Source: Brachycybe producta
Lineage: Eukaryota > Arthropoda > Diplopoda > Playtdesmida > Andrognathidae
Assembly: GCA_036925085.1 (NCBI GenBank)
Contig: JAUPFP010000053.1
Coordinates: 558,001 to 622,000, forward strand
Length of the DNA: 64,000 bases
Reading direction: 5' to 3'
Each line of letters opens with the position of its first letter. Within the stretch, counting starts at the first letter, position 1. The position numbers and the translations under genes were made by a program. This document shows, one piece after another, positions 10,915 through 63,713 of this stretch. Under the pieces are notes generated by a model. It worked only from the letters and a program-made list of their open reading frames with translations. It was not told the DNA's origin and searched no databases.

Positions 10915-10968
10915 CTACAACTTCAACTTCAACTTAAAATTCAACTTCAACTTCAACTTCAATGTCAA

Positions 10969-12000: not shown

Positions 12001-12150
12001 CTTCAACTTCATCTTCAAGTTCAACTTCAACTTTAACTTCATCTTCAACTTCAACTTAAAATTCAACTTTAACTTCAACTTCAACTTTAACTTCAAATTC
12101 AACTTCAACTTCAAATTCAACTTCAACTTCAACTTCAACTTCAACTTCAA

Positions 12151-12228
12151 CTACAATTTCATATTCAAGTTCAACTTCAGTTTCATATTCAAGTTCAACT
12201 TCAATTTCATATTCAAGTTCAACTTCAA
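12151..12228. repeat. 24-bp subrepeat array, CTACAA-led
   Basis: Copy of 2437-2514, with the same CTTCAG. Confidence 0.93.
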
Positions 12229-28176: not shown

Positions 28177-28242
28177 CTTCAAGTTCAACTTCAATTTAAT
28201 ATTCAAGTTCAACTTCAATTTCATATTCAAGTTCAACTTCAA
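28177..28242. repeat. 24-bp subrepeat array, one unit shorter
   Basis: Like 1897-1986 but missing one 24-bp unit. Confidence 0.93.
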
Positions 28243-28530
28243 CTTCGAATTCAACTTCAACTTCAACTTTAAATTCAACTTTTAATTCAACTTCAACTTC
28301 AACTTCAAGTTCAACTTCAACTTCAAATTCAACTTTAACATCACCTTCAACTTCAACTTCAAATTCAACTTCAAATTCAAATTCAAATTCAACTTCAACT
28401 TCATCTTCAAGTTGAACTTCATCTTCAACTTCAACTTCAACTTCAACTTCAACTTCAACTTTAACTTCATCTTCAACTTCAACTTCAACTTCAACTTAAA
28501 ATTCAACTTCAACTTCAACTTCAATGTCAA

Positions 28531-28620
28531 CTTCAAGTTCAACTTCAATTTAATATTCAAGTTCAACTTCAATTTCATATTCAAGTTCAACTTCAATTTC
28601 ATATTCAAGTTCAACTTCAA
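28531..28620. repeat. 24-bp subrepeat array
   Basis: Full-length form with TTTAAT, followed by the GAATTC at 28625. Confidence 0.93.
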
Positions 28621-28872
28621 CTTCGAATTCAACTTCAACTTCAACTTTAAATTCAACTTTTAATTCAACTTCAACTTCAACTTCAACTTCAACTTTAAAT
28701 TCAACTTCAGCTTCAACTTCAACTTCAACTTCAACTTCAAATTCAACTTCAACTTCATCTTCAACTTCAACTTAAAATTCAACTTTAACTTCAACTTCAA
28801 CTTCAACTTTAATTTTAACTTAAACTTTAACTTCAACTTTAACTTCAACTTCAACTTTAACTTCAACTTCAA

Positions 28873-28950
28873 CTATAATTTCATATTCAAGTTCAACTTC
28901 AGTTTCATATTCAAGTTCAACTTCAATTTCATATTCAAGTTCAACTTCAA
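28873..28950. repeat. 24-bp subrepeat array, CTATAA-led
   Basis: As 2437-2514 but led by CTATAA instead of CTACAA. Confidence 0.93.
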
Positions 28951-28974
28951 CTTCAACTTCAACTTCAACTTCAA

Positions 28975-29052
28975 CTACAATTTCATATTCAAGTTCAACT
29001 TCAGTTTCATATTCAAGTTCAACTTCAATTTCATATTCAAGTTCAACTTCAA
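28975..29052. repeat. 24-bp subrepeat array, CTACAA-led
   Basis: Only 102 bp after the preceding array; the pair probably arose by local duplication. Confidence 0.93.
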
Positions 29053-32202: not shown

Positions 32203-32280
32203 CTACAATTTCATATTCAAGTTCAACTTCAGTTTCATATTCAAGTTCAACTTCAATTTCATATACAAGTTCAACTTCAA
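32203..32280. repeat. 24-bp subrepeat array, CTACAA-led
   Basis: Carries a private ATACAA in the last unit. Confidence 0.93.
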
Positions 32281-32322
32281 CTTCAAATTCAACTTCAACT
32301 TCAACTTCAACTTCAACTTCAA

Positions 32323-32400
32323 CTACAATTTCATATTCAAGTTCAACTTTAGTTTCATATTCAAGTTCAACTTCAATTTCATATTCAAGTTCAACTTCAA
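32323..32400. repeat. 24-bp subrepeat array, CTACAA-led
   Basis: CTTTAG stands where other copies have CTTCAG. Counterpart of 28975. Confidence 0.93.
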
Positions 32401-34974: not shown

Positions 34975-36432
34975 CTACAACTTCAATGTCAACTTCAACT
35001 TCATCTTCAACTTCAACTTCAACTTCAACTTAAAATTCAACTTCAACTTCAACTTCAATGTCAACTTCAACTTCAACTTCAACTTAAAATTCAACTTCAA
35101 CTTCAACTTTAACTTCATTTTCAACTTCAACTTCAACTTCAACTTAAAATTCAACTTCAACTTCAATGTCAACTTCAACTTCAACTTCAACTTTAACTTC
35201 ATCTTCAACTTCAACTTCAACTTCAACTTCAACTTTAACTTCATCTTCAACTTCAACTTCAACTTCAACTTAAAATTCAACTTCAACTTCAACTTCAATT
35301 TCAACTTCAACTTCAACTTAAAATTCAACTTCAACTTCAACTTCAACTTCAACTTTAACTTCATTTTCAACTTCAACTTCGACTTCAACTTAAAATTCAA
35401 CTTCAACTTCAATGTCAACTTCAACTTCAACTTCAACTTCAACTTTAACTTCATCTTCAACTTCAACTTCAACTTCAACTTAAAATTTAACTTCAACTTC
35501 AATGTCAACTTCAACTTCAATGTCAACTTCAACTTCAACTTCAACTTCAACTTTAACTTCATCTTCAACTTCAACTTCAACTTCAACTTCAACTTAAAAT
35601 TCAACTTCAACTTCAACTTCAATGTCAACTTCAACTTCAACTTCAACTTAAAATTCAACTTCAACTTCATTTTCAACTTCAACTTCGACTTCAACTTAAA
35701 ATTCAACTTCAACTTCAATGTCAACTTCAACTTCAACTTCAACTTCAACTTTAACTTCATCTTCAACTTCAACTTCAACTTCAACTTAAAATTTAACTTC
35801 AACTTCAATGTCAACTTCAACTTCAATGTCAACTTCAACTTCAACTTCAACTTCAACTTTAACTTCATCTTCAACTTCAACTTCAACTTCAACTTCAACT
35901 TAAAATTCAACTTCAACTTCAACTTCAATGTCAACTTCAACTTCAACTTCAACTTAAAATTCAACTTCAACTTCAACTTCAATGTCAACTTGATCTTTAA
36001 CTTGAACTTCAAGTTCAAGTTCAACTTCAACTTTGAATTCAACTTTAAATTCAACTTCAACTTCAACTTCAAATTCAACTTCAACTTCAATTTCAACTTC
36101 AACTTCAACTTCAAACTCAACTTCAACTTCATATTGAACTTCAACTTCAACTTCAACTTCAAATTCAACTTCAACATCAACTTCAACATCAACTTCAACT
36201 TCAACTTCAAATTCAACTTCAAATTAAACTTCAACTTCATCTTCAACTTCAACTTCAACTTTAACTTCATCTTCAACTTCAACTTCAACTTCAACTTCAA
36301 CTTCAAATTCAACTTCAACATCAACTTCAACTTCAACTTCAACTTTAACTTCATTTTCAACTTCAACTTCGACTTCAACTTAAAATTCAACTTCAACTTC
36401 AATGTCAACTTCAACTTAAAATTCAACTTCAA
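34975..36432. repeat. Mosaic block with first 306-bp doublet
   Basis: CTACAA at 34975 and 36433 bound it. ATTTAA units at 35485 and 35791 are 306 bp apart, and the dyad module follows 198 bp after the second one (35989). Its right part recurs around 38.4-39.6 kb at an offset of about 2,880 bp. Confidence 0.75.
35989..36054. repeat. Dyad module, single, late form
   Basis: Second hexamer is CTTTAA; the dyad (35999-36021) is unaffected. All eight modules from here rightwards share this change. Confidence 0.94.
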
Positions 36433-38220
36433 CTACAACTTCAATGTCAACTTCAACTTCATCTTCAACTTCAACTTCAACTTCAACTTAAAATTCAACT
36501 TCAACTTCAACTTCAATGTCAACTTCAACTTCAACTTCAACTTCAACTTCAACTTTAACTTCATCTTCAACTTCAACTTCAACTTCAACTTCAAATTCAA
36601 TTTCAACTTCATAATGAACTTCAACTTCAACTTCAACTTCAAATTCAACTTCAACATCAACTTCAACTTCAATGTTAACTTCAACTTCAACTTCAACTTA
36701 AAATTCAACTTCAACTTCAACTTCAACTTTAACTTCATTTTCAACTTCAACTTCAACTTAAAATTCAACTTCAATGTCAACTTCAACTTCAACTTCAACT
36801 TCATCTTTAACTTCATCTTCAACTTCAACTTCAACTTCAACTTCAAATTCAACTTCAACTTCATAATGAACTTCAACATCAACTTCAACTTCAAATTCAA
36901 CTTCAACATCAACTTCAACTTCAATGTCAACTTCAACTTCAACTTCAACTTAAAATTCAACTTCAACTTCAACTTTAACTTCATTTTCAACTTCAACTTC
37001 AACTTCAACTTAAAATTCAACTTCAACTTCAATGTCAACTTCAACTTCAACTTCAATTTTAACTTCATCTTCAACTTCAACTTCAACTTCAACTTAAAAT
37101 TCAACTTCAACATCAACTTCAATTTCAACTTCAACTTCAACTTAAAATTCAACTTCAACTTCAACTTCAACTTCAACTTTAACTTCATTTTCAACTTCAA
37201 CTTCGACTTCAACTTAAAATTCAACTTCAACTTCAATGTCAACTTCAACTTCAACTTCAACTTCAACTTTAACTTCATCTTCAACTTCAACTTCAACTTC
37301 AACTTAAAATTTAACTTCAACTTCAATGTCAACTTCAACTTCAATGTCAACTTCAACTTCAACTTCAACTTCAACTTTAACTTCATCTTCAACTTCAACT
37401 TCAACTTCAACTTCAACTTAAAATTCAACTTCAACTTCAACTTCAATGTCAACTTCAACTTCAACTTCAACTTAAAATTCAACTTCAACTTCATTTTCAA
37501 CTTCAACTTCGACTTCAACTTAAAATTCAACTTCAACTTCAATGTCAACTTCAACTTCAACTTCAACTTCAACCTTAACTTCATCTTCAACTTCAACTTC
37601 AACTTCAACTTAAAATTTAACTTCAACTTCAATGTCAACTTCAACTTCAATGTCAACTTCAACTTCAACTTCAACTTCAACTTTAACTTCATCTTCAACT
37701 TCAACTTCAACTTCAACTTCAACTTAAAATTCAACTTCAACTTCAACTTTAATTTCAACTTAAACTTTAACTTCAATTTTAACTTCAACTTCAACTTTAA
37801 TTTCAAATTCAACTTCAACTTCAACTTCAACTTCAACTTTAACTTCATTTTCAACTTCAACTTCAACTTCAACTTAAAATTCAACTTCAACTTCAATGTC
37901 AACTTCAACTTCAACTTTAACTTCAACTTTAACTTCATCTTCAACTTCAACTTCAATTTCAACTTAAAATTCAATTTCAACTTCAACTTCAATGTCAACT
38001 TCAACTTCAAATTCAACTTCAACTTCAACATCAACTTCAACTTCAATGTCAACTTCAACTTCAACTTCAACTTAAAATTCAACTTCAACTTCAACTTTAA
38101 CTTCATTTTCAACTTCAACTTCAACTTCAACTTAAAATTCAACTTCAACTTCAATGTCAACTTCAACTTCAACTTCAACTTTAACTTCATCTTCAACTTC
38201 AACTTCAACTTCAACTTCAA
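36433..38220. repeat. Mosaic block with second 306-bp doublet, no dyad module
   Basis: ATTTAA units at 37309 and 37615. No dyad module follows; a string with CTTTAA, CTTCAATTTTAA and ATTTCAA-like units near 37,740-37,810 stands there instead. CTTCATAATGAA variants occur near 36607 and 36859. Confidence 0.72.
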
Positions 38221-42150: not shown

Positions 42151-45132
42151 CTACAACTTCAACTTCAACTTAAAATTCAACTTCAACTTCAACTTCAACT
42201 TCAACTTCAATTTCAAATTCAACTTCAACTTCATATTGAACTTCAACTTCAACTTCAACATCAACTTCAACTTCAACTTCAAATTCAACTTCAAATTCAA
42301 CTTCAACTTCATCTTCAACTTCAACTTCAACTTTAACTTCATCTTCAACTTCAACTTCAACTTAAAATTCAACTTCAACTTCAACTTCAATGTCAACTTC
42401 AACTTCATCTTCAACTTCAACTTCAACTTAAAATTCAACTTCAACTTCAACTTCAATGTCAACTTCAACTTCAACTTCAACTTCAACTTTAACTTCATCT
42501 TCAACTTCAACTTCAACTTCAACTTAAAATTCAACTTCAACTTCAACTTCAATGTCAACTTCAACTTCAACTTCAACTTCAACTTTAACTTCATCTTCAA
42601 CTTCAACTTCAACTTCAACTTCATCTTCAACTTCAACTTCAACTTCAACTTAAAATTCAACTTCAACTTCAACTTCAATGTCAACTTCAACTTCAACTTC
42701 AACTTTAACTTCATCTTCAACTTCAACTTCAACTTCAACTTCAAATTCAATTTCAACTTCATAATGAACTTCAACTTCAACTTCAACTTCAAATTCAACT
42801 TCATCATCAACTTCAACTTCAATGTTAACTTCAACTTCAACTTCAACTTAAAATTCAACTTCAACTTCAACTTCAACTTTAACTTCATTTTCAACTTCAA
42901 CTTCAACTTCAACTTAAAATTCAACTTCAACTTCAACTTCAACTTCAACTTTAACTTCGTCTTCAACTTCAACTTCAACTTCAACTTCAACTTTAACTTC
43001 ATCTTCAACTTCAACTTCAACTTCAACTTAAAATTCAACTTCAACTTCAACTTCAATGTCAACTTCAACTTCAACTTAAAATTCAACTTCAACTTCAACT
43101 TCAACTTCAACTTTAACTTCATTTTCAACTTCAACTTCGACTTCAACTTAAAATTCAACTTCAACTTCAATGTCAACTTCAACTTCAACTTCAACTTCAA
43201 CTTTAACTTCGTCTTCAACTTCAACTTCAACTTCAACTTAAAATTTAACTTCAACTTCAATGTCAACTTCAACTTCAATGTCAACTTCAACTTCAACTTC
43301 AACTTCAACTTTAACTTCATCTTCAACTTCAACTTCAACTTCAACTTCAACTTAAAATTCAACTTCAACTTCAACTTCAATGTCAACTTCAACTTCAACT
43401 TCAACTTAAAATTCAACTTCAACTTCATTTTCAACTTCAACTTCGACTTCAACTTAAAATTCAACTTCAACTTCAATGTCAACTTCAACTTCAACTTCAA
43501 CTTCAACTTTAACTTCATCTTCAACTTCAACTTCAACTTCAACTTAAAATTTAACTTCAACTTCAATGTCAACTTCAACTTCAATGTCAACTTCAACTTC
43601 AACTTCAACTTCAACTTTAACTTCATCTTCAACTTCAACTTCAACTTCAACTTCAACTTAAAATTCAACTTCAACTTCAACTTCAATGTCAACTTCAACT
43701 TCAACTTCAACTTAAAATTCAACTTCAACTTCAACTTCAATGTCAACTTGATCTTTAACTTGAACTTCAAGTTCAAGTTCAACTTCAACTTTGAATTCAA
43801 CTTTAAATTCAACTTCAACTTCAACTTCAAATTCAACTTCAACTTCAATTTCAACTTCAACTTGAACTTCAAACTCAACTTCAACTTCATATTGAACTTC
43901 AACTTCAACTTCAACTTCAAATTCAACTTCAACATCAACTTCAACTTCAACTTCAAATACAACTTCAAATTAAACTTCAACTTCATCTTCAACTTCAACT
44001 TCAACTTTAACTTCATCTTCAACTTCAACTTCAACTTCAACTTCAACTTCAAATTCAACTTCAACATCAACTTCAACTTCAACTTCAACTTCAACTTAAA
44101 ATTCAACTTCAACTTCAATGTCAACTTCAACTTCAACTTCAACTTTAACTTCATCTTCAACTTCAACTTCAACTTAAAATTCAACTTCAACTTCAACTTC
44201 AACTTCAATGTCAACTTCAACTTCAACTTCAACTTAAAATTCAACTTCAACTTCAACTTCAACTTCAACTTTAACTTCATTTTCAACTTCAACTTCAAAT
44301 TCAACTTAAAATTCAACTTCAACTTCAATGTCAACTTCAACTTCAACTTCAACTTCAACTTCAACTTTAACTTCATCTTCAACTTCAACTTCAACTTCAA
44401 CTTAAAATTCAACTTCAACTTCAATGTCAACTTCAACTTCAACTTCAACTTCAACTTTAACTTCATCTTCAACTTCAACTTAAAATTCAACTTCAACTTC
44501 AACTTTAAATTCAACTTCAACTTCAACTCCAACTTCAACTTTAACTTCATTTTCAACTTCAACTTCAACTTCAACTTAAAATTCAACTTCAACTTCAATG
44601 TTAACTTCAACTTCAACTTCAACTTCAACTTTAACTTCATCTTCAACTTCAACTTCAACTTCAACTTAAAATTCAACTTCAACTTCAACTTCAATGTCAA
44701 CTTCAACTTCAACTTCAACTTAAAATTCAACTTCAACTTCAACTTTAACTTCATTTTCAACTTCAACTTCAACTTCAACTTAAAATTCAACTTCAACTTC
44801 AATGTGAACTTCAACTTCAACTTCAACTTCAACTTTAACTTCATCTTCAACTTCAACTTCAACTTCAACTTAAAATTCAACTTCAACTTCAACTTCAATG
44901 TCAACTTCAACTTCAACTTCAACTTAAAATTCAACTTCAACTTCAACTTTAACTTCATCTTCAACTTCAACTTCAACTTAAAATTCAACTTCAACTTCAA
45001 CTTCAATGTCAACTTCAACTTCAACTTCAACTTCAACTTCAACTTCAACTTCAACTTCAACTTCAACTTTAACTTTAACTTCATCTTCAACTTCAACTTC
45101 AACTTCAACTTCAACTTTAACTTCATCTTCAA
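42151..45132. repeat. D block, copy 2
   Basis: Doublet at 43243 and 43549, dyad module at 43747. The left ~450 bp resembles the start of the block at 45133 (CTACAA, then CTTCATATTGAA, then ATTCAA pairs). From about 43,309 rightwards it recurs at an offset of 12,435 bp. Confidence 0.83.
43747..43812. repeat. Dyad module, single, late form
   Basis: In D copy 2, 198 bp after the ATTTAA at 43549. Confidence 0.94.
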
Positions 45133-45624
45133 CTACAACTTCAACTTCAACTTAAAATTCAACTTCAACTTCAACTTCAACTTCAACTTCAACTTCAAAT
45201 TCAACTTCAACTTCATATTGAACTTCAACTTCAACTTCAACATCAACTTCAACTTCAACTTCAAATTCAACTTCAAATTCAACTTCAACTTCATCTTGAA
45301 CTTCAACTTCAACTTTAACTTCATCTTCAACTTCAACTTCAACTTAAAATTCAACTTCAACTTCAACTTCAATGTCAACTTCAACTTCATCTTCAACTTC
45401 AACTTCAACTTAAAATTCAACTTCAACTTCAACTTCAACTTCAACTTCAACTTTAACTTCATCTTCAACTTCAACTTCAACTTCAACTTAAAATTCAACT
45501 TCAACTTCAACTTCAATGTCAACTTCAACTTCAACTTCAACTTCAACTTCAACTTCAACTTCAACTTCAACTTTAACTTCATCTTCAACTTCAACTTCAA
45601 CTTCAACTTTAACTTCATCTTCAA
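45133..45624. repeat. Short E block, copy 1
   Basis: 492 bp. Copy 2 is 57568-58065 (498 bp). Both carry a CTTCATCTTGAA variant about 160 bp in. Confidence 0.8.
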
Positions 45625-47142
45625 CTACAACTTAAACTTCAACTTAAAATTCAACTTCAACTTCAACTTCAACTTCAACTTCAACTTCAAATTCAACTTC
45701 AACTTCATATTGAACTTCAACTTCAACTTCAACTTCAACATCAACTTCAACTTCAACTTCAAATTCAACTTCAAATTCAACTTCAACTTCATCTTCAACT
45801 TCAACTTCAACTTTAACTTCATCTTCAACTTCAACTTCAACTTAAAATTCAACTTCAACTTCAACTTCAATGTCAACTTCAACTTCATCTTCAACTTCAA
45901 CTTCAACTTAAAATTCAACTTCAACTTCAACTTCAATGTCAACTTCAACTTCAACTTCAACTTCAACTTCAACTTTAACTTCATCTTCAACTTGAACTTC
46001 AACTTCAACTTCATAATGAACTTCAACTTCAACTTCAACTTCAAATTCAACTTCAACATCAACTTCAACTTCAATGTTAACTTCAACTTCAACTTCGACT
46101 TAAAATTCAACTTCAACTTCAACTTCAACTTAAACTTTAACTTCATTTTCAACTTCAACTTCAACTTCAACTTAAAATTCAACTTCAACTTCAACTTCAA
46201 TGTCAACTTCAACTTCAACTTCAACTTCAACTTTAACTTCATCTTCAACTTCAACTTCAACTTCAACTTCAAATTCAACTTCAACTTCATAATGAACTTC
46301 AACTTCAACTTCAACTTCAAATTCAACTTCAACATCAACTTCAACTTCAATGTCAACTTCAACTTCAACTTCAACTTCAAATTCAACTTCAACTTCAACT
46401 TCAACTTCAACTTCAACTTCAATTTCAAATTCAACTTCAACTTCAACTTCAACTTCAACTTTAACTTCATTTTCAACTTCAACTCCAACTTCAACTTAAA
46501 ATTCAACTTCAACTTCAATGTCAACTTCAACTTCAACTTCAACTTCAACTTCAACTTCAACTTCAACTTCAACTTTAACTTCATCTTCAACTTCAACTTC
46601 AACTTCAACTTTAACTTCATCTTCAACTACAACTTAAACTTCAACTTAAAATTCAACTTCAACTTCAACTTCAACTTCAACTTCAACTTCAAATTCAACT
46701 TCAACTTCATATTGAACTTCAACTTCAACTTCAACTTCAACATCAACTTCAACTTCAACTTCAAATTCAACTTCAAATTCAACTTCAACTTCATCTTCAA
46801 CTTCAACTTCAACTTCAACTTAAAATTCAACTTCAACTTCAACTTCAATGTCAACTTCAACTTCAACTTCAACTTCAACTTTAACTTCATCTTCAACTTC
46901 AACTTCAACTTCAACTTCAAATTCAACTTCAACTTCATAATGAACTTCAACTTCAACTTCAACTTCAAATTCAACTTCAACATCAACTTCAACTTCAATG
47001 TCAACTTCAACTTCAACTTCAACTTCAAATTCAACTTTAACTTCATCTTCAACTTCAACTTCAATTTCAACTTAAAATTCAATTTCAACTTCAACTTCAA
47101 TGTCAACTTCAACTTCAAATTTAACTTCAACTTCAACTTCGA
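45625..47142. repeat. E2 block, copy 1, internally duplicated
   Basis: CTACAA directly followed by CTTAAA occurs at 45625 and again at 46627, so the block start is present twice (about 1,002 bp, then a truncated 516 bp). The homologous region 58066-59097 has it once. It ends at the first five-base unit. Confidence 0.8.
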
Positions 47143-47147
47143 CTTAA
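47143..47147. other. Phase-break junction 1 (five-base unit CTTAA)
   Basis: Follows ATTTAA, two CTTCAA and CTTCGA. This is the first departure from the 6-bp phase in the window. Confidence 0.97.
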
Positions 47148-47423
47148 CTTCAACTTCAAATTCAACTTCAACTTCAACTTCGACTTAAAATTCAACTTCA
47201 ACTTCAACTTCAACTTAAACTTTAACTTCATTTTCAACTTCAACTTCAACTTCAACTTAAAATTCAACTTCAAATTCAACTTCAACATCAACTTTAACTT
47301 CAACTTCAAATTCAACTTCAAATTCAACTTCAACTTCATCTTCAACTTCAACTTTAACTTCATCTTTAACTTCAACTTCAACTTCAACTTCAACTTCAAC
47401 TTCAAATTCAACTTCAACTTCAA
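47148..47423. repeat. Linker block, copy 1
   Basis: ATTCAA and CTTCGA-CTTAAA units and a CATCAA unit follow the phase break and lead to CTACAA at 47424. The copy after junction 4 (59103-59366) is 12 bp shorter. Confidence 0.8.
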
Positions 47424-47525
47424 CTACAATTTCATATTCAAGTTCAACTTCAATTTCATATTCAAGTTCAACTTCAGTTTCATATTCAAGTTCAACTTCA
47501 ATTTCATATTCAAGTTTAACTTCAA
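47424..47525. repeat. 24-bp subrepeat array, four-fold form
   Basis: Four TTTCAT-led units with CTTCAG in the second; last GTTCAA is GTTTAA. Followed by GAATTC at 47530. Confidence 0.93.
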
Positions 47526-48419
47526 CTTCGAATTCAACTTCAACTTCAACTTTAAATTCAACTTTAAATTCAACTTCAACTTCAACTTCAACTTCAACTT
47601 CAAGTTCAAATTCAACTTCAGCTTTAACTTCAACTTCAACTTCAACTTCAAACTCAACTTCAAATTCATCTTCAACTTCAACTTTAACTTCAACTTCAAC
47701 TTCAACTTCAAATTCAACTTTAACATCAACTTCAACTTCAACTTCAAATTCAACTTCAAATTAAACTTCAACTTCAACTTCAACTTTAACTTCATTTTCA
47801 ACTTCAACTTCGACTTCAACTTAAAATTCAACTTCAACTTCAATGTCAACTTCAACTTCAACTTCAACTTCAACTTTAACTTCATCTTCAACTTCAACTT
47901 CAACTTCAACTTAAAATTTAACTTCAACTTCAATGTCAACTTCAACTTCAATGTCAACTTCAACTTCAACTTCAACTTCAACTTTAACTTCATCTTCAAC
48001 TTCAACTTCAACTTCAACTTCAACTTAAAATTCAACTTCAACTTCAACTTCAATGTCAACTTCAACTTCAACTTCAACTTAAAATTCAACTTCAACTTCA
48101 TTTTCAACTTCAACTTCGACTTCAACTTAAAATTCAACTTCAACTTCAATGTCAACTTCAACTTCAACTTCAACTTCAACTTTAACTTCATCTTCAACTT
48201 CAACTTCAACTTCAACTTAAAATTTAACTTCAACTTCAATGTCAACTTCAACTTCAATGTCAACTTCAACTTCAACATCAACTTCAACTTTAACTTCATC
48301 TTCAACTTCAACTTCAACTTCAACTTCAACTTAAAATTCAACTTCAACTTCAACTTCAATGTCAACTTCAACTTCAACTTCAACTTAAAATTCAACTTCA
48401 ACTTCAACTTCAATGTCAA

Positions 48420-48485
48420 CTTGATCTTTAACTTGAACTTCAAGTTCAAGTTCAACTTCAACTTTGAATTCAACTTTAAATTCAA
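48420..48485. repeat. Dyad module, single, late form
   Basis: In F1, 198 bp after the ATTTAA at 48222. Confidence 0.94.
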
Positions 48486-50969
48486 CTTCAACTTCAACTT
48501 CAAATTCAACTTCAACTTCAATTTCAACTTCAACTTCAACTTCAAACTCAACTTCAACTTCATATTGAACTTCAACTTCAACTTCAACTTCAAATTCAAC
48601 TTCAACATCAACTTCAACTTCAACTTCAAATTCAACTTCAAATTAAACTTCAACTTCATCTTCAACTTCAACTTCAACTTTAACTTCATCTTCAACTTCA
48701 ACTTCAACTTCAACTTCAACTTCAAATTCAACTTCAACATCAACTTCAACTTCAACTTCAACTTCAACTTAAAATTCAACTTCAACTTCAATGTCAACTT
48801 CAACTTCAACTTCAACTTTAACTTCATCTTCAACTTCAACTTCAACTTAAAATTCAACTTCAACTTCAACTTCAACTTCAACTTCAATGTCAACTTCAAC
48901 TTCAACTTCAACTTAAAATTCAACTTCAACTTCAACTTCAACTTCAACTTTAACTTCATTTTCAACTTCAACTTCAAATTCAACTTAAAATTCAACTTCA
49001 ACTTCAATGTCAACTTCAACTTCAACTTCAACTTCAACTTCAACTTTAACTTCATCTTCAACTTCAACTTCAACTTCAACTTAAAATTCAACTTCAACTT
49101 CAATGTCAACTTCAACTTCAACTTCAACTTCAACTTTAACTTCATCTTCAACTTCAACTTAAAATTCAACTTCAACTTCAACTTTAAATTCAACTTCAAC
49201 TTCAACTCCAACTTCAACTTTAACTTCATTTACAACTTCAACTTCAACTTCAACTTAAAATTCAACTTCAACTTCAATGTTAACTTCAACTTCAACTTCA
49301 ACTTCAACTTTAACTTCATCTTCAACTTCAACTTCAACTTCAACTTAAAATTCAACTTCAACTTCAACTTCAATGTCAACTTCAACTTCAACTTCAACTT
49401 AAAATTCAACTTCAACTTCAAGTTTAACTTCATTTTCAACTTCAACTTCAACTTCAACTTAAAATTCAACTTCAACTTCAATGTTAACTTCAACTTCAAC
49501 TTCAACTTCAACTTTAACTTCATCTTCAACTTCAACTTCAACTTCAACTTAAAATTCAACTTCAACTTCAACTTCAATGTCAACTTCAACTTCAACGTCA
49601 ACTTAAAATTCAACTTCAACTTCAACTTTAACTTCATCTTCAACTTCAATGTCAACTTCAACTTCAACTTCAACTTAAAATTCAACTTCAACTTCAACTT
49701 TAACTTCATCTTCAACTTCAACTTCAACTTCAACTTAAAATTCAACTTCAACTTCAACTTCAATGTCAACTTCAACTTCAACTTCAACTTCAACTTCAAC
49801 TTCAACTTTAACTTCATCTTCAACTTCAACTTCAACTTCAACTTCAACTTTAACTTCATCTTCAACTACAACTTCAACTTCAACGTAAAATTCAACTTCA
49901 ACTTCAACTTCAACTTCAACTTCAACTTCAAATTCAACTTCAACTTCATATTGAACTTCAACTTCAACTTCAACTTCAACATCAACTTCAACTTCAACTT
50001 CAACTTCAAATTCAACTTCAAATTCAACTTCAACTTCATCTTCAACTTCAACTTCAACTTTAACTTCAACTTTAACTTCAACTTCAACTTAAAATTCAAC
50101 TTCAACTTCAACTTCAACTTCAACTTCAACTTCAAATTCAACTTCAACTTCATATTGAACTTCAACTTCAACTTCAACTTCAACATCAACTTCAACTTCA
50201 ACTTCAAATTCAACTTCAAATTCAACTTCAACTTCATCTTTAACTTCAACTTCAACTTTAACTTCATCTTCAACTTCAACTTCAACTTAAAATTCAACTT
50301 CAACTTCAACTTCAATGTCAACTTCAACTTCATCTTCAACTTCAACTTCAACTTAAAATTCAACTTCAACTTCAACTTCAATGTCAACTTCAACTTTAAC
50401 TTCAACTTCAACTTTAACTTCATCTTCAACTTGAACTTCAACTTCAACTTCATAATGAACTTCAACTTCAACTTCAACTTCAAATTCAACTTCAACATCA
50501 ACTTCAACTTCAATGTTAACTTCAACTTCAACTTCAACTTAAAATTCAACTTCAACTTCAACTTCAACTTAAACTTTAACTTCATTTTCAACTTCAACTT
50601 CAACTTAAAATTCAACTTCAACTTCAACTTCAATGTCAACTTCAAATTCAACTTCAACATCAACTTCAACTTCAATGTCAACTTCAACTTCAACTTCAAC
50701 TTCAAATTCAACTTCAACTTCAACTTCAACTTCAATTTCAAATTCAACTTCAACTTCAACTTCAACTTCAACTTTAACTTCATTTTCAACTTCAACTCCA
50801 ACTTCAACATAAAATTCAACTTCAACTTCAATGTCAACTTCAACTTCAACTTTAACTTCAACTTTAACTTCATCTTCAACTTCAACTTCAATTTCAACTT
50901 AAAATTCAATTTCAACTTCAACTTCAATGTCAACTTCAACTTCAAATTTAACTTCAACTTCAACTTCGA

Positions 50970-50974
50970 CTTAA
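50970..50974. other. Phase-break junction 2
   Basis: Same CTTAA five-base unit and same left context as junction 1. Confidence 0.97.
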
Positions 50975-51280
50975 CTTCAACTTCAAATTCAACTTCAACT
51001 TCAACTTCAACTTCAACTTCAAATTCAACTTCAACATCAACTTCAACTTCAACTTCAAATTCAACTTCAACATCAACTTTAACTTCAACTTCAAATTCAA
51101 CTTCAAATTCAACTTCAACTCCATCTTCAACTTCAACTTTAACTTCATCTTCAACTTCAACTTCAACTTCAACTTAAAATTCAACTTCAACTACAACTTA
51201 AACTTTAACTTCAACTTTAACTTCAACTTCAACTTTAACTTCAAATTCAACTTCAACTTCAAATTCAACTTCAACTTCAA

Positions 51281-51382
51281 CTACAATTTCATATTCAAGT
51301 TCAACTTCAATTTCATATTCAAGTTCAACTTCAGTTTCATATTCAAGTTCAACTTCAATTTCATATTCAAGTTCAACTTCAA
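51281..51382. repeat. 24-bp subrepeat array, four-fold form
   Basis: Same form as at 47424 without the GTTTAA change; GAATTC at 51387. Confidence 0.93.
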
Positions 51383-52240
51383 CTTCGAATTCAACTTCAA
51401 CTTCAACTTTAAATTCAACTTTAAATTCAACTTCAACTTCAACTTCAACTTCAACTTCAAGTTCAAATTCAACTTCAGCTTTAACTTCAACTTCAACTTC
51501 AACTTCAAACTCAACTTCAAATTCATCTTCAACTTCAACTTTAACTTCAACTTCAACTTCAACTTTAAATTCAACTTTAACATCAACTTCAACTTCAACT
51601 TCAAATTCAACTTCAAATTAAACTTCAACATCAACTTCAACTTCAACTTCAACTTTAACTTCATTTTCAACTTCAACTTCGACTTCAACTTAAAATTCAA
51701 CTTCAACTTCAATGTCAACTTCAACTTCAACTTCAACTTCAACTTTAACTTCATCTTCAACTTCAACTTCAACTTCAACTTAAAATTTAACTTCAACTTC
51801 AATGTCAACTTCAACTTCAATGTCAACTTCAACTTCAACTTCAACTTCAACTTTAACTTCATCTTCAACTTCAACTTCAACTTCAACTTCAACTTAAAAT
51901 TCAACTTCAACTTCAACTTCAATGTCAACTTCAACTTCAACTTAAACTTAAAATTCAACTTCAACTTCATTTTCAACTTCAACTTCGACTTCAACTTAAA
52001 ATTCAACTTCAACTTCAATGTCAACTTCAACTTCAACTTCAACTTCAACTTTAACTTCATCTTCAACTTCAACTTCAACTTCAACTTAAAATTTAACTTC
52101 AACTTCAATGTCAACTTCAACTTCAATGTCAACTTCAACTTCAACTTCAACTTCAACTTTAACTTCATCTTCAACTTCAACTTCAACTTCAACTTCAACT
52201 TCAACTTAAAATTCAACTTCAACTTCAACTTCAATGTCAA

Positions 52241-52306
52241 CTTGATCTTTAACTTGAACTTCAAGTTCAAGTTCAACTTCAACTTTGAATTCAACTTTAA
52301 ATTCAA
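52241..52306. repeat. Dyad module, single, late form
   Basis: In F2, 150 bp after the ATTTAA at 52091. Confidence 0.94.
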
Positions 52307-54658
52307 CTTCAACTTCAACTTCAAATTCAACTTCAACTTCAATTTCAACTTCAACTTCAACTTCAAACTCAACTTCAACTTCATATTGAACTTCAACTTC
52401 AACTTCAACTTCAAATTCAACTTCAACATCAACTTCAACTTCAACTTCAAATTCAACTTCAAATTAAACTTCAACTTCATCTTCAACTTCAACTTCAACT
52501 TTAACTTCATCTTCAACTTCAACTTCAACTTCAACTTCAACTTCAATTTCAACTTCAACATCAACTTCAACTTCAACTTCAACTTCAACTTAAAATTCAA
52601 CTTCAACTTCAATGTCAACTTCAACTTCAACTTCAACTTTAACTTCACCTTCAACTTCAACTTCAACTTAAAATTCAACTTCAACTTCAACTTCAACTTC
52701 AACTTCAATGTCAACTTCAACTTCAACTTCAACTTAAAATTCAACTTCAACTTCAACTTCAACTTCAACTTTAACTTCATTTTCAACTTCAACTTCAAAT
52801 TCAACTTAAAATTCAACTTCAACTTCAATGTCAACTTCAACTTCAACTTCAACTTCAACTTCAACTTTAACTTCATCTTCAACTTCAACTTCAACTTCAA
52901 CTTAAAATTCAACTTCAACTTCAATGTCAACTTCAACTTCAACTTCAACTTCAACTTTAACTTCATCTTCAACTTCAACTTAAAATTCAACTTCAACTTC
53001 AACTTTAAATTCAACTTCAACTTCAACTCCAACTTCAACTTTAACTTCATTTTCAACTTCAACTTCAACTTCAACTTAAAATTCAACTTCAACTTCAATG
53101 TTAACTTCAACTTCAACTTCAACTTCAACTTTAACTTCATCTTCAACTTCAACTTCAACTTCAACTTAAAATTCAACTTCAACTTCAACTTCAATGTCAA
53201 CTTCAACTTCAACTTAAACTTAAAATTCAACTTCAACTTCAACTTTAACTTCATTTTCAACTTCAACTTCAACTTCAACTTAAAATTCAACTTCAACTTC
53301 AATGTTAACTTCAACTTCAACTTCAACTTCAACTTTAACTTCATCTTCAACTTCAACTTCAACTTCAACTTAAAATTCAACTTCAACTTCAACTTCAATG
53401 TCAACTTCAACTTCAACTTCAACTTAAAATTCAACTTCAACTTCAACTTTAACTTCATCTTCAACTTCAATGTCAACTTCAACTTCAACTTCAACTTAAA
53501 ATTCAACTTCAACTTCAACTTTAACTTCATCTTCAACTTCAACTTCAACTTCAACTTAAAATTCAACTTCAACTTCAACTTCAATGTCAACTTCAACTTC
53601 AACTTCAACTTCATTTTCAACTTCAACTTCGACTTCAACTTAAAATTCAACTTCAACTTCAATGTCAACTTCAACTTCAACTTCAACTTCAACTTTAACT
53701 TCATCTTCAACTTCAACTTCAACTTCATCTTCAACTTCAACTTCAACTTTAACTTCAACTTTAACTTCAACTTCAACTTAAAATTCAACTTCAACTTCAA
53801 CTTCAACTTCAACTTCAACTTCAAATTCAACTTCAACTTCATATTGAACTTCAACTTCAACTTCAACTTCAACATCAACTTCAACTTCAACTTCAAATTC
53901 AACTTCAAATTCAACTTCAACTTCATCTTTAACTTCAACTTCAACTTTAACTTCATCTTCAACTTCAACTTCAACTTAAAATTCAACTTCAACTTCAACT
54001 TCAATGTCAACTTCAACTTCATCTTCAACTTCAACTTCAACTTAAAATTCAACTTCAACTTCAACTTCAATGTCAACTTCAACTTCAACTTCAACTTCAA
54101 CTTTAACTTCATCTTCAACTTGAACTTCAACTTCAACTTCATAATGAACTTCAACTTCAACTTCAACTTCAAATTCAACTTCAACATCAACTTCAACTTC
54201 AATGTTAACTTCAACTTCAACTTCAACTTAAAATTCAACTTCAACTTCAACTTCAACTTAAACTTTAACTTCATTTTCAACTTCAACTTCAACTTAAAAT
54301 TCAACTTCAACTTCAACTTCAATGTCAACTTCAAATTCAACTTCAACATCAACTTCAACTTCAATGTCAACTTCAACTTCAACTTCAACTTCAAATTCAA
54401 CTTCAACTTCAACTTCAACTTCAATTTCAAATTCAACTTCAACTTCAACTTCAACTTCAACTTTAACTTCATTTTCAACTTCAACTCCAACTTCAACATA
54501 AAATTCAACTTCAACTTCAATGTCAACTTCAACTTCAACTTTAACTTCAACTTTAACTTCATCTTCAACTTCAACTTCAATTTCAACTTAAAATTCAATT
54601 TCAACTTCAACTTCAATGTCAACTTCAACTTCAAATTTAACTTCAACTTCAACTTCGA

Positions 54659-54663
54659 CTTAA
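54659..54663. other. Phase-break junction 3
   Basis: Identical unit and context; 3,689 bp after junction 2. Confidence 0.97.
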
Positions 54664-54969
54664 CTTCAACTTCAAATTCAACTTCAACTTCAACTTCAAC
54701 TTCAACTTCAAATTCAACTTCAACATCAACTTCAACTTCAACTTCAAATTCAACTTCAACATCAACTTTAACTTCAACTTCAAATTCAACTTCAAATTCA
54801 ACTTCAACTCCATCTTCAACTTCAACTTTAACTTCATCTTCAACTTCAACTTCAACTTCAACTTAAAATTCAACTTCAACTACAACTTAAACTTTAACTT
54901 CAACTTTAACTTCAACTTCAACTTTAACTTCAAATTCAACTTCAACTTCAAATTCAACTTCAACTTCAA

Positions 54970-55071
54970 CTACAATTTCATATTCAAGTTCAACTTCAAT
55001 TTCATATTCAAGTTCAACTTCAGTTTCATATTCAAGTTCAACTTCAATTTCATATTCAAGTTCAACTTCAA
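54970..55071. repeat. 24-bp subrepeat array, four-fold form
   Basis: Start of the hybrid F/D block; GAATTC at 55076. Confidence 0.93.
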
Positions 55072-56181
55072 CTTCGAATTCAACTTCAACTTCAACTTTA
55101 AATTCAACTTTAAATTCAACTTCAACTTCAACTTCAACTTCAACTTCAAGTTCAAATTCAACTTCAGCTTTAACTTCAACTTCAACTTCAACTTCAAACT
55201 CAACTTCAAATTCATCTTCAACTTCAACTTTAACTTCAACTTCAACTTCAACTTTAAATTCAACTTTAACATCAACTTCAACTTCAACTTCAAATTCAAC
55301 TTCAAATTAAACTTCAACATCAACTTCAACTTCAACTTCAACTTTAACTTCATTTTCAACTTCAACTTCGACTTCAACTTAAAATTCAACTTCAACTTCA
55401 ATGTCAACTTCAACTTCAACTTCAAATTCAACTTCAACTTCATCTTTAACTTCAACTTCAACTTTAACTTCATCTTCAACTTCAACTTCAACTTAAAATT
55501 CAACTTCAACTTCAACTTCAATGTCAACTTCAACTTCATCTTCAACTTCAACTTCAACTTAAAATTCAACTTCAACTTCAACTTCAATGTCAACTTCAAC
55601 TTCAACTTCAACTTCAACTTTAACTTCATCTTCAACTTGAACTTCAACTTCAACTTCATAATGAACTTCAACTTCAACTTCAACTTCAAATTCAACTTCA
55701 ACATCAACTTCAACTTCAATGTTAACTTCAACTTCAACTTCAACTTTAACTTCATCTTCAACTTCAACTTCAACTTCAACTTCAACTTAAAATTCAACTT
55801 CAACTTCAACTTCAATGTCAACTTCAACTTCAACTTCAACTTAAAATTCAACTTCAACTTCATTTTCAACTTCAACTTCGACTTCAACTTAAAATTCAAC
55901 TTCAACTTCAATGTCAACTTCAACTTCAACTTCAACTTCAACTTTAACTTCATCTTCAACTTCAACTTCAACTTCAACTTAAAATTTAACTTCAACTTCA
56001 ATGTCAACTTCAACTTCAATGTCAACTTCAACTTCAACTTCAACTTCAACTTTAACTTCATCTTCAACTTCAACTTCAACTTCAACTTCAACTTAAAATT
56101 CAACTTCAACTTCAACTTCAATGTCAACTTCAACTTCAACTTCAACTTAAAATTCAACTTCAACTTCAACTTCAATGTCAA

Positions 56182-56247
56182 CTTGATCTTTAACTTGAAC
56201 TTCAAGTTCAAGTTCAACTTCAACTTTGAATTCAACTTTAAATTCAA
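56182..56247. repeat. Dyad module, single, late form
   Basis: In the hybrid F/D block, 198 bp after the ATTTAA at 55984. Confidence 0.94.
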
Positions 56248-57567
56248 CTTCAACTTCAACTTCAAATTCAACTTCAACTTCAATTTCAACTTCAACTTGA
56301 ACTTCAAACTCAACTTCAACTTCATATTGAACTTCAACTTCAACTTCAACTTCAAATTCAACTTCAACATCAACTTCAACTTCAACTTCAAATACAACTT
56401 CAAATTAAACTTCAACTTCATCTTCAACTTCAACTTCAACTTTAACTTCATCTTCAACTTCAACTTCAACTTCAACTTCAACTTCAAATTCAACTTCAAC
56501 ATCAACTTCAACTTCAACTTCAACTTCAACTTAAAATTCAACTTCAACTTCAATGTCAACTTCAACTTCAACTTCAACTTTAACTTCATCTTCAACTTCA
56601 ACTTCAACTTAAAATTCAACTTCAACTTCAACTTCAACTTCAATGTCAACTTCAACTTCAACTTCAACTTAAAATTCAACTTCAACTTCAACTTCAACTT
56701 CAACTTTAACTTCATTTTCAACTTCAACTTCAAATTCAACTTAAAATTCAACTTCAACTTCAATGTCAACTTCAACTTCAACTTCAACTTCAACTTCAAC
56801 TTTAACTTCATCTTCAACTTCAACTTCAACTTCAACTTAAAATTCAACTTCAACTTCAATGTCAACTTCAACTTCAACTTCAACTTCAACTTTAACTTCA
56901 TCTTCAACTTCAACTTAAAATTCAACTTCAACTTCAACTTTAAATTCAACTTCAACTTCAACTCCAACTTCAACTTTAACTTCATTTTCAACTTCAACTT
57001 CAACTTCAACTTAAAATTCAACTTCAACTTCAATGTTAACTTCAACTTCAACTTCAACTTCAACTTTAACTTCATCTTCAACTTCAACTTCAACTTCAAC
57101 TTAAAATTCAACTTCAACTTCAACTTCAATGTCAACTTCAACTTCAACTTCAACTTAAAATTCAACTTCAACTTCAACTTTAACTTCATTTTCAACTTCA
57201 ACTTCAACTTCAACTTAAAATTCAACTTCAACTTCAATGTGAACTTCAACTTCAACTTCAACTTCAACTTTAACTTCATCTTCAACTTCAACTTCAACTT
57301 CAACTTAAAATTCAACTTCAACTTCAACTTCAATGTCAACTTCAACTTCAACTTCAACTTAAAATTCAACTTCAACTTCAACTTTAACTTCATCTTCAAC
57401 TTCAACTTCAACTTAAAATTCAACTTCAACTTCAACTTCAATGTCAACTTCAACTTCAACTTCAACTTCAACTTCAACTTCAACTTCAACTTCAACTTCA
57501 ACTTTAACTTTAACTTCATCTTCAACTTCAACTTCAACTTCAACTTCAACTTTAACTTCATCTTCAA

Positions 57568-58065
57568 CTACAACTTCAACTTCAACTTAAAATTCAACTT
57601 CAACTTCAACTTCAACTTCAACTTCAACTTCAAATTCAACTTCAACTTCATATTGAACTTCAACTTCAACTTCAACATCAACTTCAACTTCAACTTCAAA
57701 TTCAACTTCAAATTCAACTTCAACTTCATCTTGAACTTCAACTTCAACTTTAACTTCATCTTCAACTTCAACTTCAACTTAAAATTCAACTTCAACTTCA
57801 ACTTCAATGTCAACTTCAACTTCATCTTCAACTTCAACTTCAACTTAAAATTCAACTTCAACTTCAACTTCAACTTCAACTTCAACTTTAACTTCATCTT
57901 CAACTTCAACTTCAACTTCAACTTAAAATTCAACTTCAACTTCAACTTCAATGTCAACTTCAACTTCAACTTCAACTTCAACTTCAACTTCAACTTCAAC
58001 TTCAACTTCAACTTTAACTTCATCTTCAACTTCAACTTCAACTTCAACTTTAACTTCATCTTCAA
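57568..58065. repeat. Short E block, copy 2
   Basis: Counterpart of 45133-45624 with one extra hexamer. Confidence 0.8.
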
Positions 58066-59097
58066 CTACAACTTAAACTTCAACTTAAAATTCAACTTCA
58101 ACTTCAACTTCAACTTCAACTTCAACTTCAAATTCAACTTCAACTTCATATTGAACTTCAACTTCAACTTCAACTTCAACATCAACTTCAACTTCAACTT
58201 CAAATTCAACTTCAAATTCAACTTCAACTTCATCTTCAACTTCAACTTCAACTTTAACTTCATCTTCAACTTCAACTTCAACTTAAAATTCAACTTCAAC
58301 TTCAACTTCAATGTCAACTTCAACTTCATCTTCAACTTCAACTTCAACTTAAAATTCAACTTCAACTTCAACTTCAATGTCAACTTCAACTTCAACTTCA
58401 ACTTCAACTTCAACTTTAACTTCATCTTCAACTTGAACTTCAACTTCAACTTCATAATGAACTTCAACTTCAACTTCAACTTCAAATTCAACTTCAACAT
58501 CAACTTCAACTTCAATGTTAACTTCAACTTCAACTTCGACTTAAAATTCAACTTCAACTTCAACTTCAACTTAAACTTTAACTTCATTTTCAACTTCAAC
58601 TTCAACTTCAACTTAAAATTCAACTTCAACTTCAACTTCAATGTCAACTTCAACTTCAACTTCAACTTCAACTTTAACTTCATCTTCAACTTCAACTTCA
58701 ACTTCAACTTCAAATTCAACTTCAACTTCATAATGAACTTCAACTTCAACTTCAACTTCAAATTCAACTTCAACATCAACTTCAACTTCAATGTCAACTT
58801 CAACTTCAACTTCAACTTCAAATTCAACTTCAACTTCAACTTCAACTTCAACTTCAACTTCAATTTCAAATTCAACTTCAACTTCAACTTCAACTTCAAC
58901 TTTAACTTCATTTTCAACTTCAACTCCAACTTCAACTTAAAATTCAACTTCAACTTCAATGTCAACTTCAACTTCAACTTTAACTTCAACTTTAACTTCA
59001 TCTTCAACTTCAACTTCAATTTCAACTTAAAATTCAATTTCAACTTCAACTTCAATGTCAACTTCAACTTCAAATTTAACTTCAACTTCAACTTCGA
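58066..59097. repeat. E2 block, copy 2 (single form)
   Basis: Counterpart of 45625-47142 without the internal duplication; ends at phase break 4. Confidence 0.8.
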
Positions 59098-59102
59098 CTT
59101 AA
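59098..59102. other. Phase-break junction 4
   Basis: Counterpart of junction 1 at an offset of 11,955 bp. Confidence 0.97.
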
Positions 59103-59366
59103 CTTCAACTTCAAATTCAACTTCAACTTCAACTTCGACTTAAAATTCAACTTCAACTTCAACTTCAACTTAAACTTTAACTTCATTTTCAACTTCAACT
59201 TCAACTTCAACTTAAAATTCAACTTCAAATTCAACTTCAACATCAACTTTAACTTCAACTTCAAATTCAACTTCAAATTCAACTTCAACTTCATCTTCAA
59301 CTTCAACTTTAACTTCATCTTTAACTTCAACTTCAACTTCAACTTCAAATTCAACTTCAACTTCAA
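59103..59366. repeat. Linker block, copy 2
   Basis: Counterpart of 47148-47423, two hexamers shorter. Confidence 0.8.
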
Positions 59367-59468
59367 CTACAATTTCATATTCAAGTTCAACTTCAATTTC
59401 ATATTCAAGTTCAACTTCAGTTTCATATTCAAGTTCAACTTCAATTTCATATTCAAGTTCAACTTCAA
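59367..59468. repeat. 24-bp subrepeat array, four-fold form
   Basis: Start of F3; GAATTC at 59473. Confidence 0.93.
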
Positions 59469-60362
59469 CTTCGAATTCAACTTCAACTTCAACTTTAAAT
59501 TCAACTTTAAATTCAACTTCAACTTCAACTTCAACTTCAACTTCAAGTTCAAATTCAACTTCAGCTTTAACTTCAACTTCAACTTCAACTTCAAACTCAA
59601 CTTCAAATTCATCTTCAACTTCAACTTTAACTTCAACTTCAACTTCAACTTCAAATTCAACTTTAACATCAACTTCAACTTCAACTTCAAATTCAACTTC
59701 AAATTAAACTTCAACTTCAACTTCAACTTTAACTTCATTTTCAACTTCAACTTCGACTTCAACTTAAAATTCAACTTCAACTTCAATGTCAACTTCAACT
59801 TCAACTTCAACTTCAACTTTAACTTCATCTTCAACTTCAACTTCAACTTCAACTTAAAATTTAACTTCAACTTCAATGTCAACTTCAACTTCAATGTCAA
59901 CTTCAACTTCAACTTCAACTTCAACTTTAACTTCATCTTCAACTTCAACTTCAACTTCAACTTCAACTTAAAATTCAACTTCAACTTCAACTTCAATGTC
60001 AACTTCAACTTCAACTTCAACTTAAAATTCAACTTCAACTTCATTTTCAACTTCAACTTCGACTTCAACTTAAAATTCAACTTCAACTTCAATGTCAACT
60101 TCAACTTCAACTTCAACTTCAACTTTAACTTCATCTTCAACTTCAACTTCAACTTCAACTTAAAATTTAACTTCAACTTCAATGTCAACTTCAACTTCAA
60201 TGTCAACTTCAACTTCAACATCAACTTCAACTTTAACTTCATCTTCAACTTCAACTTCAACTTCAACTTCAACTTAAAATTCAACTTCAACTTCAACTTC
60301 AATGTCAACTTCAACTTCAACTTCAACTTAAAATTCAACTTCAACTTAAACTTCAATGTCAA

Positions 60363-60428
60363 CTTGATCTTTAACTTGAACTTCAAGTTCAAGTTCAACT
60401 TCAACTTTGAATTCAACTTTAAATTCAA
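60363..60428. repeat. Dyad module, single, late form
   Basis: In F3, 198 bp after the ATTTAA at 60165. Confidence 0.94.
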
Positions 60429-62918
60429 CTTCAACTTCAACTTCAAATTCAACTTCAACTTCAATTTCAACTTCAACTTCAACTTCAAACTCAACTTCAA
60501 CTTCATATTGAACTTCAACTTCAACTTCAACTTCAAATTCAACTTCAACATCAACTTCAACTTCAACTTCAAATTCAACTTCAAATTAAACTTCAACTTC
60601 ATCTTCAACTTCAACTTCAACTTTAACTTCATCTTCAACTTCAACTTCAACTTCAACTTCAACTTCAAATTCAACTTCAACATCAACTTCAACTTCAACT
60701 TCAACTTCAACTTAAAATTCAACTTCAACTTCAATGTCAACTTCAACTTCAACTTCAACTTTAACTTCATCTTCAACTTCAACTTCAACTTAAAATTCAA
60801 CTTCAACTTCAACTTCAACTTCAACTTCAATGTCAACTTCAACTTCAACTTCAACTTAAAATTCAACTTCAACTTCAACTTCAACTTTAACTTCATTTTC
60901 AACTTCAACTTCAAATTCAACTTAAAATTCAACTTCAACTTCAATGTCAACTTCAACTTCAACTTCAACTTCAACTTCAACTTTAACTTCATCTTCAACT
61001 TCAACTTCAACTTCAACTTAAAATTCAACTTCAACTTCAATGTCAACTTCAACTTCAACTTCAACTTCAACTTTAACTTCATCTTCAACTTCAACTTAAA
61101 ATTCAACTTCAACTTCAACTTTAAATTCAACTTCAACTTCAACTCCAACTTCAACTTTAACTTCATTTTCAACTTCAACTTCAACTTCAACTTAAAATTC
61201 AACTTCAACTTCAATGTTAACTTCAACTTCAACTTCAACTTCAACTTTAACTTCATCTTCAACTTCAACTTCAACTTCAACTTAAAATTCAACTTCAACT
61301 TCAACTTCAATGTCAACTTCAACTTCAACTTCAACTTAAAATTCAACTTCAACTTCAAGTTTAACTTCATTTTCAACTTCAACTTCAACTTCAACTTAAA
61401 ATTCAACTTCAACTTCAATGTTAACTTCAACTTCAACTTCAACTTCAACTTTAACTTCATCTTCAACTTCAACTTCAACTTCAACTTAAAATTCAACTTC
61501 AACTTCAACTTCAATGTCAACTTCAACTTCAACGTCAACTTAAAATTCAACTTCAACTTCAACTTTAACTTCATCTTCAACTTCAATGTCAACTTCAACT
61601 TCAACTTCAACTTAAAATTCAACTTCAACTTCAACTTTAACTTCATCTTCAACTTCAACTTCAACTTCAACTTAAAATTCAACTTCAACTTCAACTTCAA
61701 TGTCAACTTCAACTTCAACTTCAACTTCAACTTCAACTTCAACTTCAACTTCAACTTTAACTTCATCTTCAACTTCAACTTCAACTTCAACTTCAACTTT
61801 AACTTCATCTTCAACTACAACTTCAACTTCAACGTAAAATTCAACTTCAACTTCAACTTCAACTTCAACTTCAACTTCAAATTCAACTTCAACTTCATAT
61901 TGAACTTCAACTTCAACTTCAACTTCAACATCAACTTCAACTTCAACTTCAACTTCAAATTCAACTTCAAATTCAACTTCAACTTCATCTTCAACTTCAA
62001 CTTCAACTTTAACTTCAACTTTAACTTCAACTTCAACTTAAAATTCAACTTCAACTTCAACTTCAACTTCAACTTCAACTTCAAATTCAACTTCAACTTC
62101 ATATTGAACTTCAACTTCAACTTCAACTTCAACATCAACTTCAACTTCAACTTCAAATTCAACTTCAAATTCAACTTCAACTTCATCTTTAACTTCAACT
62201 TCAACTTTAACTTCATCTTCAACTTCAACTTCAACTTAAAATTCAACTTCAACTTCAACTTCAATGTCAACTTCAACTTCATCTTCAACTTCAACTTCAA
62301 CTTAAAATTCAACTTCAACTTCAACTTCAATGTCAACTTCAACTTCAACTTCAACTTCAACTTTAACTTCATCTTCAACTTGAACTTCAACTTCAACTTC
62401 ATAATGAACTTCAACTTCAACTTCAACTTCAAATTCAACTTCAACATCAACTTCAACTTCAATGTTAACTTCAACTTCAACTTCAACTTAAAATTCAACT
62501 TCAACTTCAACTTCAACTTAAACTTTAACTTCATTTTCAACTTCAACTTCAACTTAAAATTCAACTTCAACTTCAACTTCAATGTCAACTTCAAATTCAA
62601 CTTCAACATCAACTTCAACTTCAATGTCAACTTCAACTTCAACTTCAACTTCAAATTCAACTTCAACTTCAACTTCAACTTCAATTTCAAATTCAACTTC
62701 AACTTCAACTTCAACTTCAACTTTAACTTCATTTTCAACTTCAACTCCAACTTCAACATAAAATTCAACTTCAACTTCAATGTCAACTTCAACTTCAACT
62801 TTAACTTCAACTTTAACTTCATCTTCAACTTCAACTTCAATTTCAACTTAAAATTCAATTTCAACTTCAACTTCAATGTCAACTTCAACTTCAAATTTAA
62901 CTTCAACTTCAACTTCGA

Positions 62919-62923
62919 CTTAA
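62919..62923. other. Phase-break junction 5
   Basis: Counterpart of junction 2 at an offset of 11,949 bp. Confidence 0.97.
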
Positions 62924-63037
62924 CTTCAACTTCAAATTCAACTTCAACTACAACTTAAACTTTAACTTCAACTTTAACTTCAACTTCAACTTTAACTTCA
63001 AATTCAACTTCAACTTCAAATTCAACTTCAACTTCAA

Positions 63038-63139
63038 CTACAATTTCATATTCAAGTTCAACTTCAATTTCATATTCAAGTTCAACTTCAGTTTCATATT
63101 CAAGTTCAACTTCAATTTCATATTCAAGTTCAACTTCAA
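63038..63139. repeat. 24-bp subrepeat array, four-fold form
   Basis: Start of the collapsed F4; GAATTC at 63144. Confidence 0.93.
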
Positions 63140-63607
63140 CTTCGAATTCAACTTCAACTTCAACTTTAAATTCAACTTTAAATTCAACTTCAACTTCAAC
63201 TTCAACTTCAACTTCAAGTTCAAATTCAACTTCAGCTTTAACTTCAACTTCAACTTCAACTTCAAACTCAACTTCAAATTCATCTTCAACTTCAACTTTA
63301 ACTTCAACTTCAACTTCAACTTTAAATTCAACTTTAACATCAACTTCAACTTCAACTTCAAATTCAACTTCAAATTAAACTTCAACATCAACTTCAACTT
63401 CAACTTCAACTTTAACTTCATTTTCAACTTCAACTTCAACTTCAACTTAAAATTCAACTTCAACTTCAATGTCAACTTCAACTTCAACTTTAACTTCAAC
63501 TTTAACTTCATTTTCAACTTCAACTTCAATTTCAACTTAAAATTCAATTTCAACTTCAACTTCAATGTCAACTTCAAATTCAAATTTAACTTCAACTTCA
63601 ACTTCGA

Positions 63608-63612
63608 CTTAA
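63608..63612. other. Phase-break junction 6
   Basis: Same unit. The left context has ATTCAA before ATTTAA where the other six have CTTCAA. Confidence 0.97.
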
Positions 63613-63708
63613 CTTCAACTTCAAATTCAACTTCAACTTCAACTTCAACTTCAACTTCAAATTCAACTTCAACATCAACTTCAAATTTAACTTCAACTTC
63701 AACTTCGA

Positions 63709-63713
63709 CTTAA
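63709..63713. other. Phase-break junction 7
   Basis: Lies 101 bp after junction 6, inside a 101-bp tandem duplication that includes the junction. Confidence 0.97.

Follow-up and report, generated by a model that had tools for sequence, protein, structure and literature searches.

Human satellites 2 and 3, which are based on CATTC, and the AAGAG satellite of Drosophila are satellites built from simple units. Unequal exchange was reportedly put forward by Smith in 1976 as an explanation of satellite arrays. The outlines given in PMC8997354 and PMC11034957 describe satellite arrays in which variant units are duplicated together into longer repeats and whole units are gained or lost, with models that invoke unequal exchange and break-induced replication. 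The DNA analyzed here is a stretch of 64,000 bases from the millipede Brachycybe producta (contig JAUPFP010000053.1, positions 558,001 to 622,000), referred to below as the window, in which an array of a six-base unit loses its register at seven places. With good confidence, we attribute these breaks to one small out-of-register change inside the hexamer satellite that multiplied as the DNA around it was duplicated. One origin is very likely, and the overall process is ordinary satellite evolution.

The window consists of one head-to-tail array of the hexamer (CTTCAA)n on the plus strand with a period of 6 throughout, that is, the long array of a single unit that characterizes satellite DNA. 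Its units number 10,667 and fall into 59 types, with the 5-base one counted among them; 6,186 units are exactly CTTCAA, and identity to the consensus lies between 90 and 93% depending on the segment. The plus strand has 796 G per 64,000 bases. Variation is distributed very unevenly across the six positions of the unit; within the left 47 kb, conservation is approximately 99% for the T at position 3 and for the A at position 5, and both C positions vary in 15 to 21% of units. A 34-base pattern of the array had no match in viral contigs, and a 28-base pure-repeat pattern hit at least 118 stretches in prokaryote genomes. These were not considered relatives of the array due to their shortness (with loci cut to 8 kb or less, the top-scoring stretch among the matches listed had 140 bases, and the longest in the best 15 of at least 118 had 163). 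None of the publications found for the hexamer unit dealt with this satellite, judging by title and start of abstract, and 18-base strings of the repeat had no match in literature text.

To locate the breaks, register was scanned in 60-bp windows with a step of 10, and the array was also subjected to wrap-around alignment to CTTCAA with 1-base indels permitted, using five gap costs from 1.2 to 3.0 against a mismatch cost of 1.0. The scan confined phase shifts within the window to seven places, and the alignment returned exactly seven single-base deletions and no insertion at all five gap costs. Nor were compensated pairs of indels (for example, within TGTCAA or AATGAA) preferred anywhere in the window at any of these costs. 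All seven breaks are 5-base CTTAA units on the plus strand. They lie at 47143 to 47147, 50970 to 50974, 54659 to 54663, 59098 to 59102, 62919 to 62923 and 63608 to 63612 (breaks 1 to 6) and at 63709 to 63713 (break 7), the last being a local tandem copy 101 bases from break 6. The initial annotation, which had described these units as the only breaks of phase, was thus exact in all seven coordinates, and the four units before and three after each break were also as it had given them. The 24-mer ATTTAACTTCAACTTCAACTTCGA occurs seven times in the window, always directly preceding a break. The identical core is longer than had been reported, with at least 29 nt on the left and at least 26 nt on the right matching exactly in all 21 pairs of breaks; among random in-phase pairs with members more than 300 bp apart, 80 of 39,614 share as much on both sides.

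Beyond the core, breaks lie in much larger common blocks. The block at 43049 to 51070, carrying breaks 1 and 2, is 99.77% identical to that at 55682 to 63019, carrying breaks 4 and 5 (both plus strand, approximately 8 kb); their nucleotide alignment covers 7,320 bases with 17 substitutions and seven whole-unit gap events. A second pair of approximately 4 kb, also on the plus strand, comprises 47700 to 51803 with break 2 and 51560 to 55492 with break 3, which overlap by 244 bases and are 99.34% identical (3,921 aligned bases, 26 substitutions, five whole-unit gap events). Blocks of 1 to 9.7 kb in the array are 98.8 to 99.9% identical, whereas random in-phase flanks of 240 bp have a median identity of 85%; this is the organization of a satellite with higher-order repeats.

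Ungapped comparison of the flanks decays because the repeat copies differ by whole units. When whole-unit gaps were allowed, the flanks of 47143 and 59098 were 99.86% identical across 119 units to the left, with one gap of 81 units, and 99.92% identical across 198 units to the right, with one gap of two units. Between 50970 and 62919, the left flanks show a single base difference across 200 units (99.92%), and those of 50970 and 54659 are 98.3% identical over 196 units, with 99.4% over 166 units on the right. Breaks 6 and 7 are separated by sixteen whole units plus the 5-base unit, and their first 72 nt on the right are identical. The right flank of 62919 departs from those of all other breaks after 26 nt and lacks 32 units when aligned to 50970, which reads as an in-register deletion. 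Left and right flanks grouped the breaks differently in ungapped comparison; with flanks this non-uniform and their groupings discordant, later deletions or exchanges must therefore be added to the history. Flank alignments among 62919, 63608 and 63709, and of the last two with the other breaks, were left out, as they often crossed a large gap into a neighboring copy, in places involving the same bases. A tree of 240 bp of left flank from six breaks and three in-phase rows, from which 63709 was excluded since its left flank consists mostly of the 101-bp copy of the neighboring break, had none of its four inner branches well supported, and the bootstrap did not settle. The case for a single origin rests on the pairwise block alignments. 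With whole-unit gaps permitted, the flanks match across hundreds of bases to kilobases, in support of the proposal in the initial annotation that one event was amplified with its surrounding block and that the break marks copies of the repeat.

Positions, shared core and shared blocks are direct observations; the order of events and the recombination mechanism that follow are inferred. A small out-of-register change would have produced a single 5-base unit within one long repeat unit, which may then have been copied by out-of-register recombination, either unequal exchange or break-induced replication, giving break-bearing copies that are now 3.7 to 4.4 kb apart. One duplication of approximately 8 kb would have taken two breaks together, and the final break would derive from the local duplication of 101 bp, so that five duplications would be enough for seven copies. 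The breaks themselves probably have no function of their own and would be inherited tags of one sub-lineage of the repeat. Nested duplications without breaks are found elsewhere in the array (for example, one of 9.7 kb at 99.89%), representing the same process.

One part of the earlier description did not hold. The first break had been taken as the boundary between an in-phase left domain and the right domain, but the repeat family around it is also present without a break at 35 to 44 kb, and therefore the breaks tag a sub-lineage rather than a domain edge. The family occurs with and without the break from approximately 35 kb on, and break 1 lies inside it. A break-free member at 35131 to 36249 (plus strand) is 98.3% identical, without gaps, to 42889 to 44007. 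The 360-bp segment at 35521 is 99.7 to 100% identical to segments at 37.3, 40.3, 43.3, 48.0, 51.8 and 59.9 kb, and the one at 40321 is identical to another at 55.7 kb; by arithmetic, a core of the 35521 type is located approximately 800 to 1,080 bp downstream from breaks 1 to 4. The in-phase left part is itself a mosaic. Its 9.7-kb tandem duplication spans 1 to 19335 (99.89% over 9,489 aligned bases, 10 substitutions, six whole-unit gap events), and a ladder of long repeats of approximately 1.25 to 1.3 kb extends from 19463 to 26412. Clusters of TTTCAT-ATTCAA-GTTCAA appear in the left part at 1939 to 2491, 11653 to 12205, 28219 to 29029 and 32209 to 32377 and also to the right of breaks 1 to 5 (at 47430, 51287, 54976, 59373 and 63044), linking repeat families that are otherwise different.

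Three kinds of change could have created the 5-base unit: loss of 1 bp, loss of 7 bp, or an out-of-register joint. The 7-bp loss had been derived from the form CTTCGA-CTTAAA-ATTCAA, said to lie near 46,096 and 47,191. The form is indeed present, but four times, and its CTTCGA begins at 46093, 47178, 58534 and 59133, so that the two positions were off by 3 and 13 bases; all four copies are in or adjoin break-carrying repeats. In the third case, the break would be the seam of an out-of-register joint of two repeat lineages by low-homology end joining, amplified afterward, an idea that competes with the origin step only and that we regard as possible but doubtful. The in-phase segment that most resembles the left flanks (37801 to 38041, plus strand) shares 97.5% identity with the 240 bp preceding break 2, and after the match ends at 38034 it continues differently to the right, which favors a joint. 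In one alignment the break copies have 41 extra bases (six units and the 5-base unit) that end at the seam, and the sequence approximately 240 to 400 bp to the right of 47143 and 50970 resembles another set of places, near 1.9 to 2.5, 11.6 to 12.2 and 28.2 to 29 kb. Precedent comes from maize centromeres, for which microhomology-mediated end joining is reported in the outline given by PMC8997354. Within the window, no in-phase copy carrying both flanks was found, which counts against the preferred account of the breaks. Segments of 96 bp touching the seam had best matches of 0.938 to 0.969 in the break-free first 45.9 kb, but among 541 control segments from the same right-hand region, 2% scored 0.938 or lower and 18% scored 0.969 or lower. 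The seam is thus somewhat, not strikingly, poor in relatives. An unusual scarcity of relatives, strong against a background that allowed matches to a segment's own recent duplicates, was discarded as weak against this control. Whole-unit deletions have also reworked the right flanks, which would blur any joint.

The single out-of-phase event in seven copies contrasts with approximately 5,370 mismatches to the unit in the window, many of which are copies of older changes. Nine duplicate pairs, partly overlapping, provided 32,780 aligned bases with 117 substitutions, 37 whole-unit gap events and no gap of any other size. With assumed ratios of small indels to substitutions of 1/10 and 1/40, approximately 12 and 3 indels would be expected by arithmetic, a count weakened by the choice of pairs from ungapped matches and by the many differences that may be old variants exchanged between copies. 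In seven of the pairs, 94 differences fall on unit positions 1 to 6 as 30, 16, 8, 31, 2 and 7. An active lock on phase, in which indels other than whole units are removed by a repair bias against small loops, by copying only in register or by a protein that needs the 6-bp register, seems improbable to us; if true, the seven breaks would represent a rare escape that spread only by riding in a duplicated block.

Less probable still is an assembly artefact, in which the break-bearing blocks would be falsely duplicated haplotypes or repeats. Certain blocks are indeed 99.8 to 99.9% identical, but the copies are distinguished by the substitutions and whole-unit gaps counted above (17 and 7 in the 8-kb pair, 26 and 5 in the 4-kb pair), and the structure beside the breaks differs among them. 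Several separate 1-base losses at a favored site are highly improbable, in line with the earlier judgment that seven independent origins were implausible. Units near the break do recur often in the array, and an exact match of 29 nt on the left occurs in approximately 1.5% of random in-phase pairs, but independent losses are contradicted by the kilobase-scale blocks common to the breaks and by the 24-mer, which includes the rare units ATTTAA and CTTCGA and is found in the window at breaks only. For breaks 1 to 5 the shared blocks refute them already; the evidence on breaks 6 and 7 comes from shorter flanks. The likelihood of a very long coding sequence, with indels forbidden by the frame and the breaks acting as frameshifts, is negligible: over the left 47 kb, the Phe-Asn plus frame does contain 4 stops where the two remaining plus frames have 604 and 624, and out-of-phase indels are almost absent, but no stop can be reached from TTC or AAC by one substitution, unit shuffling yields 0.87 stops on average (range 0 to 4, 30 shuffles) against the 4 observed, and a protein-coding repeat with an open frame and few amino acid changes was rejected, as 62 of the 94 recent differences are non-synonymous in this frame and a stop closes it 14 to 70 codons beyond each of the seven breaks. 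Coding constraint is no explanation for the phase-locking.

Most unit variants recur many times in the array and are therefore poor markers of descent. The out-of-phase unit is almost unambiguous and reveals descent among copies of the repeat, and the scarcity of other such units (one event against approximately 5,370 substituted positions) would allow measuring how firmly a simple satellite holds its register. Apart from these two aspects, the array shows standard satellite evolution.

Like satellites with higher-order repeats, this array combines tandem units and nested block duplications with variants that travel along in longer duplicated units, and whole units have been gained and lost. 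It differs from those with monomers such as the 171-bp alpha satellite in its unit of 6 bp and in a sub-lineage marked by one out-of-phase event. With human satellites 2 and 3 and Drosophila AAGAG it shares a short simple unit, diverged copies and large arrays, although the unit is a different one, and while those arrays probably contain many indels, a single out-of-phase event is found here.
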